Origin: Archaeoglobus sp. JdFR-27
Lineage (GTDB): Archaea > Halobacteriota > Archaeoglobi > Archaeoglobales > Archaeoglobaceae
DNA length: 41,279 nt
Direction: 5' to 3'
NCBI GenBank assembly: GCA_002011235.1
Contig: MTMO01000051.1
Span: forward strand, 1-41,279
Made by a program: the position numbers and the translations under genes. Position 1 is the first letter of the stretch, and the number at the start of each line of letters is the position of its first letter. Shown one piece after another: positions 24,954 through 29,774 of the stretch. The notes beneath the pieces are model-generated. The model was not told the origin of the DNA. It did no database searches and worked only from the letters and a program-made list of their open reading frames with translations.

Positions 24954-26867
24954 ATGCAACTCTTTAATAAAAGAGGGATTCTGATCTGCATGCTCATTTT
25001 TTCTCTTATCACATCGTCTATCGCAATCTTACCAAACCAGATTCTTCTGCAAAGTAAAGCTCAGTTCTTGAATGCTAACGAAGCAAGAATTAAAGCCGTA
25101 GCGGTGAAAAGTACCGAACCACCAGAAGGGGCGGTTATAAATATTTCCGTAATCGTTACTCCCGGAGATGGCAGGGTTTTCGTGTCTACAATCCCATATA
25201 CCCAAATAGACATGCAGGGAAGTGCTCAACTCGCCGCTCTAACAGCATGTGACGTTTTAGGTTTAGACTTTATGAAATACGACTTCTTTTTCACGATAGA
25301 AGCGGATTCTCCAATTGTAGGAGGGCCTTCCGCTGGTGGAGTCATGACAGTTGCAACAATCTCAGCCCTCAAAAATCTTAGCATTAGAGAAGATGTATAT
25401 ATGACAGGAATGATTTACCCAGACGGGTTTGTTGGACCGGTTGGGGGTATTCCTTACAAGTTGAAAGCTGCAGCCGAGTATGGGGCAAAGATATTCCTGA
25501 TACCAAAAGGTCAGAGGGTTGTTACCGTAGAAGAAACTGTTGAGGAGAAAAAAGGGCCGTTCATTTTCATAAGTAAAAAAAGCAAACCTGTCGATCTTTA
25601 CGAATATGGAAAGGAGTTAGGAGTTAAAGTTATCGAGGTCGAAAAGATAGAGGATGCTTTACTCTACTATACAAATTATACAATCGTCAAATCACAGCAA
25701 AAAACAAATCTTTCAAAGTATTCAAATCTGCTTATTCAGCTCGCCGAAAGGATGAAAAGAGACACATCCGACCTTTATTCAACAGTAAAAGCTACAGGAG
25801 CTAAACTTGAAAAGGCAGATGAATTCATATCAAAAGGAGATGAGAGCTACAAGAGAGGATATTACTATACAGCAACAAGCCAGTATTTTACGGCAAAAAT
25901 CGAACTGAGATACCTTTACTACACCCATACGATTAAAGATGATGACGATCTAGAAGCTGAATTTGGAAGAATCGCAAATGAGATAAATTCCACTAAAGAA
26001 TTTCTTTCCTCCTATAAAGATCTTGGAATTGAATCCCTCCAGCTTTTTGGTGCAGCCCAGGAGAGAATAACTCTCGCAGAAAACTACCTCTACCGGGCGA
26101 GAACATCTGATGATTTTGAGGAGTCTTTAAGATATTTAGCATTCTCAAAGGAGAGAATAGAGAGTGCAAGAGTATGGTTGTCTTTACTTGAAACTATAAA
26201 AGAGGATATACCGATCAAGTCTGAGGATCTGCAACGAAGAGCCCAATTTTATCTCAGTCAAGCAGAATCAATGGTTGTTTATGCATCCCAGATCGGAGGA
26301 TACCCAGGATTGATAGATGATGCCCAGAACAGCATAGATATCTCAAGAAGACAGCTCGAGGAGGGGTTCTATGCAGGCTCGGCCATTTCAGCAATTGATG
26401 GAATAACCAAAGCAAGTCTTTCAATTGAACTTATAAATGTCGATGAAAATTCTATAAAGTCAAAGGTTATCTCCGCCAACAACTCAGCCAGAATAGCAAT
26501 CGGAGAGGTTGAGAAAGTCGTAACTCCTGTATTACCAGTAGCATATTTAGAATATGCTGACACCGCAGAAAATCCGGTTTTGAAACTTTCCTATTATAAG
26601 CTCTCAGAGAGGCTGGCAAAACTCATGCTCTCCCTTTCAAGGGCCTTTCCTGAATCGAGAATTGTAAAAGTTGAATTAAATTACCCCCATGAGATTACAC
26701 CCACTCCAAAATCCACACCCCCTACTATGCCAGATATCTCAAAAATCAAACCAGAGGTGCCAAAACTTCCGGAGATAGAGAAATACATCCCAGCCTTTGA
26801 GGCCTATCTAGCCATAGTTCTCATTATTTCTACAGCATATCTATTGAGAAACGTTAGAAGAAAATAG
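24954..26867 (+). CDS. Secreted, membrane-anchored Lon-like (S16) protease without ATPase
   Basis: 637 aa. An N-terminal signal peptide or anchor (residues of about 8-25) leads to an S16 peptidase domain (about 40-230). The catalytic dyad is visible as S126 in GGPSAGGVMTVA and K169 in GGIPYKLKAA. No AAA+ domain is present. A long alpha-helical region (about 250-580), a Pro/Thr-rich linker and a C-terminal transmembrane helix (about 612-631) with a basic tail follow. The protease domain should face outside. Homologues are annotated as Lon-like or S16 proteins in archaea. It could process secreted or surface proteins without ATP. Monocistronic; the stop is 6 nt from the end of the convergent DUF92 gene. 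Confidence 0.85.
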   Translation: MQLFNKRGILICMLIFSLITSSIAILPNQILLQSKAQFLNANEARIKAVAVKSTEPPEGAVINISVIVTPGDGRVFVSTIPYTQIDMQGSAQLAALTACDVLGLDFMKYDFFFTIEADSPIVGGPSAGGVMTVATISALKNLSIREDVYMTGMIYPDGFVGPVGGIPYKLKAAAEYGAKIFLIPKGQRVVTVEETVEEKKGPFIFISKKSKPVDLYEYGKELGVKVIEVEKIEDALLYYTNYTIVKSQQKTNLSKYSNLLIQLAERMKRDTSDLYSTVKATGAKLEKADEFISKGDESYKRGYYYTATSQYFTAKIELRYLYYTHTIKDDDDLEAEFGRIANEINSTKEFLSSYKDLGIESLQLFGAAQERITLAENYLYRARTSDDFEESLRYLAFSKERIESARVWLSLLETIKEDIPIKSEDLQRRAQFYLSQAESMVVYASQIGGYPGLIDDAQNSIDISRRQLEEGFYAGSAISAIDGITKASLSIELINVDENSIKSKVISANNSARIAIGEVEKVVTPVLPVAYLEYADTAENPVLKLSYYKLSERLAKLMLSLSRAFPESRIVKVELNYPHEITPTPKSTPPTMPDISKIKPEVPKLPEIEKYIPAFEAYLAIVLIISTAYLLRNVRRK

Positions 26868-26873
26868 GATAGC

Positions 26874-28127
26874 TTAGAGTAGAAGAAAATAGCAGACAAC
26901 AATGGTGCTGAGGGTTGCGAGGAAATTTACCCCAAAGTTCGTGAGGTAACCCATTCTTTCAAGTGTTGCACCGAGAAAGCTGTCAACATGTACGCCAATG
27001 AATCCAGCTATGATCGCTACAGGCACGTAGGTTGCAGGAAGAACTGAAAGAAAGAAGGCAATCATAGTCACAATAACTGAACCGGCAAGAGCTGATAACT
27101 CACCGAGAACAGACACCCCACCGCTCTCCCCGGGGCTTACAGGATTAAAGTTTGTGATTAGATAAACCCTCCCCGAGGTTTTGCCTATCTCACTTGCCAT
27201 AGTATCTCCCAAGGCTGTTGCGATGCTCGCTACAAACGAGACGAGGAAGATATCCGAACCGATGACATGATAGTTTAAAGCAAAGAACAAGGCAGGAAGG
27301 CTATTTGAGAAAACATTTACATACCCCCTAGCCCCCCCAGCAGGTTCTTCAATTCCTAGATCAAGCTTTAGTGAATACCGGAATCTTGTTGCGAAGGAAC
27401 CTATTATATAAAAGGACGCAAGAATCAGGAAAAATCGAATGTCCGTAAAGACAATTATAAGAGTTCCAACAAGAGTTGCACTCATAAGACCGCTTTCATC
27501 AGCCACTCCCGTTCTCATTGCTGCCAAGCCCAAAATAAAGGAAAAAACAAAAGCATAAACAAGCTGATTAAGGGGAGCATAGAGACCGTAGATGTTAAAA
27601 ATCAGCAAAACAGTTGACGTTGCGAGGAGCAAAGTGGTTCTTTTATCGCTCTCAACCTCTATGCTTTCAACCAAAGCTGCTGTTATACCTCCCACTAAGG
27701 AGAGAAAGAAAAGAAATTCCTCATTTATGGACATATTCCTTACTATGAAGAAGAAACTAAGATAAATTAGAGCGAGAAGGGTGAAAATTCCGATATTGAA
27801 GATGGACTTTCTCCTGAATTCGTGTCCCAAGAGCATGAAAATTGCGACTCCAGCCACATAATCAGGTACACCAATAAAAGTGGAAAGAATCAAAACAACC
27901 GATAGAATATAAGAGTTAAAATAAGAACTCGGACTGTTAAGCCTGCTAACTCCTATTTTAATTTTTTCTCCTTCATAAATCGTATAAAGCATGAGAATCG
28001 GGGCGAAAATACCCAAAACAATCCAACTTTCAACAAAAGGTAAGAGAAAGGAGGGAAGCATTGCTATCAGAACGAGTATTCCAGTGGGGTAAAATATCCC
28101 CTCAAATCTCTTAAACTGGTAGCCCAT
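26874..28127 (-). CDS. DUF92-family membrane protein (VTE6/phytyl-phosphate kinase-like)
   Basis: About 417 aa with many membrane helices. The C-terminal half (about 205-417) is the DUF92 domain, with the conserved EPAGGARGYVNVFSN segment, TALGDTMASEIGK and FNPVSPGESGGVS. Plant VTE6 of this family phosphorylates phytyl phosphate, and related archaeal proteins may act on geranylgeranyl or polyprenyl phosphates. The N-terminal half is another hydrophobic region I do not recognise. ATG 28127 is preferred to a TTG two codons upstream. It is divergent, by only 39 bp, from a cis-prenyltransferase homologue, which supports a polyprenol or isoprenoid-lipid role. Confidence 0.8.
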   Translation of the reverse strand: MGYQFKRFEGIFYPTGILVLIAMLPSFLLPFVESWIVLGIFAPILMLYTIYEGEKIKIGVSRLNSPSSYFNSYILSVVLILSTFIGVPDYVAGVAIFMLLGHEFRRKSIFNIGIFTLLALIYLSFFFIVRNMSINEEFLFFLSLVGGITAALVESIEVESDKRTTLLLATSTVLLIFNIYGLYAPLNQLVYAFVFSFILGLAAMRTGVADESGLMSATLVGTLIIVFTDIRFFLILASFYIIGSFATRFRYSLKLDLGIEEPAGGARGYVNVFSNSLPALFFALNYHVIGSDIFLVSFVASIATALGDTMASEIGKTSGRVYLITNFNPVSPGESGGVSVLGELSALAGSVIVTMIAFFLSVLPATYVPVAIIAGFIGVHVDSFLGATLERMGYLTNFGVNFLATLSTIVVCYFLLL

Positions 28128-28166
28128 TGGCAAAGGTTAAGTAATTTCTATCTTAAAAAATTACCG

Positions 28167-28793
28167 ATGCCTGAATTGTTCAAATTCATCAGAAAAATCT
28201 ATGAGAAGAGATTGGAAAACGAGGTAAGAAGTGGGAATGTTCCTGAGCACATAATGGTTGTTACTGACCAACATGATTTTGTTGAAAATACCTCAAGCTT
28301 TTATCGACTCATAAAGTGGTGCAAGAAATTTAAGATCAAAGAATTAACAATTTGTATGCACATTTATGAGAAAGAAAATATAAACCAGCTTATCTCAGAA
28401 CTCTGCTCTTCCCTTAAAGGTCACAGTTTGAAAATAATAACAAAAGAAAGAACTATTGAGTCGGGAAATGGGAATTTAAAGCTCAATTTTATCTTAGGAT
28501 ATGGTGGAAAGGCAGAAATTACAGATGCGGTGAAAGAGATTGCAAAATTTGTGGTGAATGGGAAGATGTCGCCTGATGAGATAGGAGAAAATGAGATAGA
28601 GAAACATCTCAGAATGAAAAGTACACCAGATCTTATAATAAGAGCTGGAGAAGAAATACCGGATTTTCTGATATGGCAAAGTATATACAGTGAACTCTAT
28701 TTCCTTGATATAAAATGGTGCGCTTTACGATACATTGATTTTCTAAGATGTCTCAGAGGGTATCAAAAGAGGGAGAGAAGGTTTGGTAAGTAG
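28167..28793 (+). CDS. Divergent cis-prenyltransferase (UppS-like) homologue lacking the GNxR motif
   Basis: 208 aa related to undecaprenyl/dehydrodolichyl diphosphate synthases. Recognisable are PEHI...D34 at the start, GYGGKAEITDAVKEIA (the NYGGR segment) and PDLIIRAGEE...NFL-like FLIWQSIYSELYFLDIKW at the end. The catalytic P-loop, normally DGNRRWA, reads DQHDF: the Asp is kept but G, N and R are lost, and the FSTENW loop is replaced (MHIYEKEN). It may be the non-catalytic partner of a heteromeric cis-prenyltransferase (as NgBR/Nus1) or have changed activity. Close divergence from the DUF92 gene suggests lipid-carrier metabolism. A catalytic partner would lie outside this window. Confidence 0.78.
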   Translation: MPELFKFIRKIYEKRLENEVRSGNVPEHIMVVTDQHDFVENTSSFYRLIKWCKKFKIKELTICMHIYEKENINQLISELCSSLKGHSLKIITKERTIESGNGNLKLNFILGYGGKAEITDAVKEIAKFVVNGKMSPDEIGENEIEKHLRMKSTPDLIIRAGEEIPDFLIWQSIYSELYFLDIKWCALRYIDFLRCLRGYQKRERRFGK

Positions 28794-28825: not shown

Positions 28826-29335
28826 ATGGGGAGAAAACCTGAAACAAAACGGTTCATGTCCCGAAAAGAGAACTTAAGACAAATAAGATACATTGCAGAT
28901 TATCAGTTCGGCGAAGGGGTAGGAAGGATTCTCTTCCCCGATTCCATCAAGCTCATAATCTCACCTAAAACCGGGAGAGTCAGACAGATTACCGATCAAG
29001 GCTTAAGAATCGCAACGATAAAACCTGCCTCAGGTTGGCTGAGTTTGAGTATTGAGGGGGCAAAGAGGCTCCATGAGACTTTCGAATTTCCGAAACTGAG
29101 AGTTGTTGTGATGAATGAGGTCTCAGACTTCATAGCCGAGGGAAAAAACGTGTTTGCAAAACATGTGATGAAGGTAGATGAAAACATAAGAGCAGAGGAT
29201 GAGGTTTTGGTTGTGAATGAAGATGACAGATTACTCGCTACAGGAAAAGCCATATTAGGCAGTATTGAGATGCTGAACTTCGACAGGGGAGTAGCTGTGA
29301 GTGTCAGAGCGGGAGTAAAAAAGTTAAAAAGCTGA
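28826..29335 (+). CDS. PUA-domain protein (archaeosine transglycosylase C-terminal-like)
   Basis: 169 aa. The N-terminal half (about 15-90; IADYQFGEGVGRILFP, PKTGRVRQI) resembles the C2 domain found before the PUA domain in archaeosine tRNA-guanine transglycosylase relatives. Residues of about 90-165 are a PUA RNA-binding domain (RVVVMNEVSDFIAEGKNVFA, EVLVVNEDDRLLATGKAILG). RNA binding is expected; a catalytic domain is absent. AAGGTGAAAAG precedes the ATG. It is 32 nt after the cis-prenyltransferase gene and 4 nt before the next, so the three may be cotranscribed. Confidence 0.82.
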   Translation: MGRKPETKRFMSRKENLRQIRYIADYQFGEGVGRILFPDSIKLIISPKTGRVRQITDQGLRIATIKPASGWLSLSIEGAKRLHETFEFPKLRVVVMNEVSDFIAEGKNVFAKHVMKVDENIRAEDEVLVVNEDDRLLATGKAILGSIEMLNFDRGVAVSVRAGVKKLKS

Positions 29336-29339
29336 TACC

Positions 29340-29774
29340 ATGATCAAAACCAAGAAAATAAAGATAAATAAACCATTAATCTTTGATCGTAACAGGAATG
29401 TCCTTTTAATTAGGAAAAATTCTGTGATAGATAAGAGGATCAGTTTTAAAGGGAAGGTGATAGTGGGGATTGATGCGTGCCTCTGGGGAGATGTTGAATG
29501 CGAGGAGATCTTGGTTGGAAAGGCTTCCTACATTAAAGGGAAAGTGATTTGCAGGAAAGCAATCGTTGGAGCGAAAACCGAGTTCAACTCAATAGTTGGA
29601 GAGGAGATTTCAATTCAAAACGGTTGCAAAGGTAGATACGTAAGAGGAAAAACAGTAGTGATTCGAAAGAATGTTGAAATAGAGAGTTTAGAGGCGGAAA
29701 CCGCTTATATAGATGGAATTTCAAAACTTGGAAAGATTGATGTCAAAAAGGTTGTTGCTTCAAAAAGCCCCTGA
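29340..29774 (+). CDS. Bactofilin-like (polymer-forming, DUF583) beta-helix protein
   Basis: 144 aa of short repeating beta strands with alternating hydrophobic residues and glycine turns (KGKVIVGIDACLWGDVECEEI, IKGKVICRKAIVGAK), the pattern of a right-handed beta-helix of the bactofilin/DUF583 group. Bacterial members form filaments; in archaea the function is unknown. The ATG lies 4 nt after the PUA gene stop, suggesting coupling. Converges with mtd. Confidence 0.6.
   Translation: MIKTKKIKINKPLIFDRNRNVLLIRKNSVIDKRISFKGKVIVGIDACLWGDVECEEILVGKASYIKGKVICRKAIVGAKTEFNSIVGEEISIQNGCKGRYVRGKTVVIRKNVEIESLEAETAYIDGISKLGKIDVKKVVASKSP

Follow-up and report, generated by a model that had tools for sequence, protein, structure and literature searches.

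Known heteromeric cis-prenyltransferases

Heteromeric cis-prenyltransferases are mostly presented as enzymes of eukaryotes (e.g. PMC7839719, in part). In the human enzyme, DHDDS is joined by NgBR, an inactive subunit that ends in an RxG motif followed by one residue (R290-L291-G292-K293). According to the excerpts of PMC7573591, DHDDS depends on this tail, which reaches over the dimer interface as far as the active site of DHDDS. There, backbone atoms of the RxG bind the phosphate of the IPP site, while the carboxylate at the chain end touches catalytic arginines, and changes in the tail lower the activity; in yeast Nus1 an asparagine replaces the RxG arginine. The homodimeric bacterial UppS combines the DGNGR or DGNRR loop and the RxG in one chain, as seen in three examples.

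Among archaea, MM_0618 and MM_1083 of Methanosarcina mazei are reported to form a heteromeric cis-prenyltransferase with C45-50 products (Emi et al., 2019, cited in PMC8131916, in part), which likely serves the glycosyl-carrier lipid (PMC8131916, in part). The first-pass annotation of the DNA described here had referred to heteromeric pairs in Methanosarcina, and this precedent proved to be real. In the open-licence literature M. mazei was the one archaeal heteromeric case that we found, and the papers listed there included no survey of archaeal heteromeric cis-prenyltransferases, nor any on Asgard archaea and Nus1.

The window gene and its product

The window is the whole analysed stretch of 41,279 nucleotides from Archaeoglobus sp. 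JdFR-27, whose genome assembly (2.36 Mb in 67 contigs) is 99.7% complete and 3.9% contaminated. The features relevant to this analysis are the following:

26874-28133, minus strand: DUF92 integral membrane protein, head-to-head neighbour of the gene under study (PF01940, E 6.9e-57)
28134-28166, no strand: intergenic stretch common to both divergent genes (from the ORF bounds), 33 bases provided that the mechanically called TTG start of the DUF92 gene is right
28167-28793, plus strand: predicted non-catalytic (NgBR/Nus1-like) cis-prenyltransferase subunit (ORF, PF01255, motifs, AlphaFold2 model, fold match)
28266-28280, plus strand: residues 34-38, DQHDF, the degenerate counterpart of the DGNRR catalytic loop of the partner (alignment)
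28776-28790, plus strand: C-terminal RxG segment RRFGK, residues 204-208, with the stop one residue past the glycine (alignment)
28826-29335, plus strand: protein with TGT_C2 and PUA domains, next gene downstream (Pfam, neighbourhood)

The ORF occupies exactly 28167-28793, begins with ATG and encodes 208 amino acids. PF01255 matches the product with an E-value of 1.3e-28 and 100.5 bits (cut-off 27), yet the match spans residues 81-207 only (profile positions 92-219), as the half that holds the catalytic loop has diverged too far to be aligned with the profile. In an alignment of 120 homologues, the DGNRR column reads DQHDF in the window protein, with the first aspartate retained and G-N-R-R gone. 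The IPP-binding R-x-S is likewise lost, since RTGGEQRLSNF of the partner described below aligns to RAGEEIPDF (EIPDF for EQRLSNF). The C-terminus ERRFGK, in turn, keeps the RxG intact (R205-F206-G207). This bears out the earlier observation that the catalytic loop had been rewritten while the RxG was kept. In the alignment of 41 of the 58 non-catalytic proteins counted below, R202, R204 and G207 are invariant (41/41), and R205 is kept in at least 90%; the corresponding alignment of the catalytic type comprised 32 of the 56 proteins.

The AlphaFold2 model of the protein, built from 41 sequences, has a pLDDT of 88.9 and a pTM of 0.85, with the RxG tail poorly placed (confidence below 50 for residues 206-208). 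Its fold matches Z,Z-FPP synthase (5hxp_A; Z 17.8, rmsd 2.5 over 188 residues) and human DHDDS (7pb1_A; Z 17.6, rmsd 2.8 over 199 residues). Of the 50 matches listed by the fold searches with the model, the second of which kept one chain per entry, some were DHDDS chains and none belonged to NgBR or Nus1, which is uninformative. Both the profile score above the cut-off and the family fold place the protein in the cis-prenyltransferase (PF01255) superfamily. It lacks what a catalytic or homomeric member has, namely the DGN(R/G)R loop and the R-x-S IPP site, and carries the motif combination of a non-catalytic subunit, in which the catalytic loop is lost and the C-terminal RxG retained. The best named match, considering the best 80 of 566 relatives, all of them archaeal by title and three with unspecific names, was 'Archaeoglobus sp.' GB_MAG3_049 (72%). 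A plasmid search gave no archaeal plasmid among the 20 listed of 100 records, the organisms named there being bacteria.

The predicted catalytic partner

The genome holds three PF01255 matches: the window protein and one on each of contigs C33 and C9. The check proposed with the first reading, a search for a second cis-prenyltransferase with intact DGNRR, had a positive outcome: the gene at C33:13661-14323 (minus strand) encodes a full-length protein of 250 amino acids (PF01255, E 8.2e-77) with intact MDGNRR and RTGGEQRLSNF motifs, which ends in QNMKRN, that is, without RxG. It is 31% identical to the window protein (77 of 249 aligned positions), and the two genes lie on separate contigs. The same genome encodes the predicted partner, which has the DGNRR and is devoid of the RxG.

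The third match lies on a contig of 4908 bases, 18 of them ambiguous (C9:1-4908, L111), which repeats the gene order of the window (DUF92, non-catalytic cis-prenyltransferase, PUA protein). We rejected it as a second copy belonging to the organism, because over its whole length the contig is 99.6% identical to a stretch of the UBA230 genome (G019); in all likelihood this is foreign DNA that contaminates the assembly. Its protein, a near-repeat of that of G019, was kept among the 58 non-catalytic proteins counted below.

Two types of protein in related genomes

Our first sample comprised 60 genomes (G000-G059, that of the window included) with 122 PF01255-like ORFs. We set aside L111, a repeat of L003, and L086, whose frame of 605 amino acids belongs to a third type, and divided the other 120 with DGNRR as the sole criterion, which gave 60 proteins with the motif and 60 without. 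In the latter group 58 of the 60 have an [RK]xG followed by a single terminal residue (56 strictly RxG, with R replaced by K in two), and the positions of R200 and S202 are not conserved in these proteins. The remaining two, assigned to neither group, are a truncated catalytic fragment (L112) and an odd 283-aa homologue in G023 (L056); the latter (L056:3838-4689) is distant, with RTGGEKRLSGG and neither DGNRR nor a C-terminal RxG. The group with DGNRR consists of 56 catalytic-type and four third-type proteins, and keeps the equivalents of R194, R200 and S202 in 60/60. An RxG near the homologous place occurs in two of the 56 catalytic-type proteins, and anywhere past the WP motif in five of the 60 with DGNRR.

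Per genome, the non-catalytic type was found in 57/60, the catalytic type in 55/60 and both in 54/60. G045 and G054 (family f9; 86% and 84% complete) have neither type and no PF01255 match at all; here, either sequence is missing or these are archaea without a recognisable cis-prenyltransferase. G033 (72% complete) is without the non-catalytic type, G025 and G029 have the catalytic type as fragments only, and G030 (95% complete) has the non-catalytic gene and no catalytic match. In G048 and G057 (family f12) we observed non-catalytic subunits cut to 163 and 167 amino acids (L079:4083-4574 and L088:3860-4363), which are very divergent and nonetheless end in RRFG plus one residue.

The second sample was restricted to genomes with a completeness of 95% or more, which excludes the f9 genomes G045 and G054, and comprised 70 of them from 19 families and 40 genera (29 genomes shared with the first sample). 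In each of the 70, one match covers nearly the whole profile and another starts at profile position 20 or later, the types being assigned here from the profile range alone. The shorter match begins beyond the DGNRR (at least the first 19 positions are missing) and reaches position 219, that of the RxG glycine, as does one catalytic match (G008). Two PF01255 matches were found in 17 of the 19 genomes of relatives of G060, itself one of the three with unspecific names, with one match in the other two, and in each of five further genomes. Judging from these sequences, most members of the sampled phylum would, as a rule, have both a catalytic and a non-catalytic type.

A third PF01255 type, found in some relatives and represented by four aligned proteins, we liken to Methanosarcina MM_0014. 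It has DGNRR and R-x-S in one chain, forms a separate group in the tree (100/100) and is none of the three PF01255 matches in the Archaeoglobus genome.

The proposed division of labour and its mechanism

We filed the window gene as a non-catalytic subunit because the division is the same as that of the human pair and because M. mazei provides a heteromeric precedent. In all probability, its product is the non-catalytic half of a heteromeric cis-prenyltransferase, and the RxG tail of this product would complete the active site of the partner. The first-pass annotation had proposed such a regulatory subunit, and the proposal is supported by the C33 partner and by the occurrence of the pair in most of the sampled relatives. 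Partner presence, motif complementarity, conservation, the family fold and purifying selection are its observed basis, and from these we infer a physical complex, its activity, insertion of the tail in trans and the nature of the product.

In the proposed mechanism, the C33 partner would bind the allylic diphosphate through its DGNRR and perform the IPP condensations, and the window protein, its own catalytic chemistry lost, would dimerise with it through the conserved C-terminal half. The R-x-G tail would then enter the C33 active site and complete the diphosphate and IPP sites, which the partner presumably cannot complete alone. The pair would make a polyprenyl diphosphate of medium length (C45-50 in M. 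mazei), a probable source of the glycosyl-carrier lipid for protein glycosylation.

By analogy, the archaeal pair resembles human DHDDS/NgBR in that one chain would provide the chemistry without the tail and the other the tail without the chemistry. It differs in that the window protein, by eye, is without the N-terminal membrane helix of NgBR and begins at the soluble domain, and in that the C33 partner, at 250 amino acids, is too short for the C-terminal helix-turn-helix of DHDDS; the human products are also longer, C85-100 (PMC7573591, in part). Bacterial UppS shares the fold and the C-terminal half, RxG included, with the window protein; what it holds in one chain the archaeal pair splits between two. 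A Tsukamurella enzyme, which has DGNRR, ends in RRFGA, so that 'RxG plus one residue' is not exclusive to proteins of the NgBR type.

The M. mazei pair MM_0618 and MM_1083, like the one predicted here, consists of two cis-prenyltransferase paralogues of a related archaeon (PMC8131916, in part); the genes of the pair predicted here lie on separate contigs. Which of the archaeal proteins corresponds to MM_0618 and which to MM_1083 can be suggested from type only. In three genomes that we take to be Methanosarcinaceae (G041, G050 and G059), both types fall inside the same two tree groups as elsewhere in the sample. In these three genomes DUF92, which adjoins the non-catalytic gene in the window, was not found beside it.

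DUF92 and the gene neighbourhood

The divergent DUF92 gene had been taken from the start as strengthening the link to a lipid carrier, and the association turned out to be stronger than a single sequence could show. Of the 58 non-catalytic genes, 47 have DUF92 as a head-to-head neighbour, and two of the 11 misses are contig ends (L036 and L045). Within the class of the window the proportion is 38/40, the C9 copy counted and both misses being these contig ends, and outside it 9/18. DUF92 genes were detected in 59/60 genomes as a single copy each, except for two in the genome of the window, one of them on C9. G045 and G054 have one DUF92 gene each despite their lack of a PF01255 match; should they truly be without a cis-prenyltransferase, this would bear on the role of DUF92. 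Among the 14 control genomes, four gave DUF92 matches, including Haloferax volcanii and Methanosarcina acetivorans, and Sulfolobus acidocaldarius gave none.

The catalytic and non-catalytic genes, with coordinates judged by eye, lie tail-to-tail within 1 kb of each other in 22 of the 70 genomes of the second sample, in 11 families, and the complete order DUF92, non-catalytic, catalytic is seen in L084 and L085; this order may be ancestral. The DUF92 family includes the plant phytyl-phosphate kinase VTE6. From its family and its gene neighbourhood, the DUF92 protein is a candidate (poly)prenyl or dolichyl (phosphate) kinase. Going by titles and the starts of abstracts, none of the papers listed from the open-licence literature deals with DUF92 in archaea, and some of them were probably matched through names such as DUF927.

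The gene for the TGT_C2 and PUA protein often lies downstream in genomes of the family and the order to which the Archaeoglobus of the window belongs, and is probably unrelated to the lipid pathway. It is often followed, in the family of the window, by a bactofilin-like gene, here at 29340-29774 (plus strand) and below the Pfam cut-off (20.7 vs 27.9 bits). On the far side of DUF92, a gene encoding a Lon-type S16 protease domain, by eye with hydrophobic segments at both ends, is frequent in the same family and lies in the window at 24954-26867 (plus strand).

The constancy of the DUF92 neighbour also suits a different role, in which the window protein binds the catalytic subunit mainly as a regulator or as an adaptor to the membrane or to a kinase such as DUF92, and does not complete the active site. 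Human NgBR, too, has adaptor roles. Yet the RxG tail is among the most conserved parts of the window protein, 54 of the 56 catalytic-type proteins have no RxG near that place, and the corresponding human tail touches the substrate sites (PMC7573591, in part), so that we consider a mainly regulatory or adaptor function improbable. Completion of the partner's active site by the tail is the reading that we retain.

Phylogeny and selection

The tree was built from 85 proteins, of which 39 (out of 58) were non-catalytic, 39 (out of 56) catalytic, four (out of four) of the third type and three bacterial. The catalytic proteins form a single group (support 96/89), as do the non-catalytic ones (83/97, and in 86% of bootstrap trees, which is below the firm-support mark of the program), and the branching of families is broadly parallel in both. 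The simplest reading of these sequences would be one old duplication that preceded the divergence of the sampled families.

That the window protein is instead an active, stand-alone (homomeric) cis-prenyltransferase with an altered catalytic loop would agree with its family fold and with the first aspartate of the motif, for which an alignable D is found in 22 of the 56 strictly-RxG homologues. However, G-N-R-R and the positions R77, H43 and R200/S202 are missing or unconserved across the non-catalytic group, R77 and H43 being gaps in 54 of the same 56, and a full-length enzyme co-occurs in 54/60 genomes; we therefore rejected this reading as very improbable. A further proposed difference, a split of the glutamate after WQ (E. 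coli E213) between the two subunits, was dropped, as the alignment has a two-residue insertion there in catalytic proteins outside the family of the window, which may keep a glutamate.

Comparison with G004, of the same genus, gave for the non-catalytic gene a dN of 0.136, a dS of 1.79 and, as a simple estimate, a dN/dS of about 0.08, and for the catalytic gene a dN of 0.038 and a dS of 1.54. Of five non-catalytic pairs, three allowed an estimate of dS, and in these dN/dS is about 0.04-0.11. The non-catalytic gene is under purifying selection, and since its type occurs in 57/60 genomes and dN/dS is about 0.08, the window protein is not a chance product. A decaying paralogue with no present function, to which the highly divergent N-terminal half and the faster change relative to the catalytic protein might point, was rejected as extremely improbable in view of this wide presence, the three invariant C-terminal residues and the low dN/dS.

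Relation to the eukaryotic DHDDS/NgBR pair

When compared with PDB sequences, the profile of the archaeal catalytic proteins scored human DHDDS best (251 bits, against 237 for the best bacterial UppS), and the C33 sequence alone also had DHDDS narrowly ahead (177.8 vs 173.6 bits). With 58 bits, the non-catalytic profile aligns to the full length of NgBR, whereas the catalytic profile matches NgBR over the C-terminal half only (25 bits). As single sequences, three non-catalytic proteins likewise align to all of human NgBR (31.9, 36.5 and 24.0 bits), and the controls to its C-terminal half only (E. coli UppS 21.7, Tsukamurella 26.5 and C33 about 13 bits). Three observations point the other way: bacterial UppS clearly outscores NgBR, both with the non-catalytic profile (130 vs 58 bits) and with the single proteins; the single-sequence ranges overlap; and yeast Nus1 (6jcn) was absent from the matches listed for the three non-catalytic proteins but present among those of the Tsukamurella control (24.5 bits).

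These sequence matches are a hint, and not proof, of an old split shared with eukaryotic DHDDS/NgBR; a similar picture could arise if the same loop had been lost in parallel. A wider scenario would have the split arise once in Archaea and be inherited by eukaryotes, with DUF92, non-catalytic and catalytic genes as an old module in this phylum and DUF92 as a missing archaeal carrier-lipid kinase that makes (poly)prenyl or dolichyl phosphate; as a whole we regard it as speculative and doubtful.

Implications

The predicted pair belongs to an already known kind of heteromeric enzyme, and what our analysis adds is the constancy of the division in the sampled phylum, the linkage to DUF92 and the question of the origin of DHDDS/NgBR. 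In the human enzyme, mutations cause glycosylation disease (PMC7573591, in part), and small pairs from thermophiles could model the activation of DHDDS by NgBR. In turn, the conserved DUF92 neighbour offers a concrete candidate for the kinase step in archaeal carrier-lipid metabolism. With the split so regular across the sampled phylum, many archaeal genomes with two 'undecaprenyl diphosphate synthase' matches would encode one enzyme and one helper.
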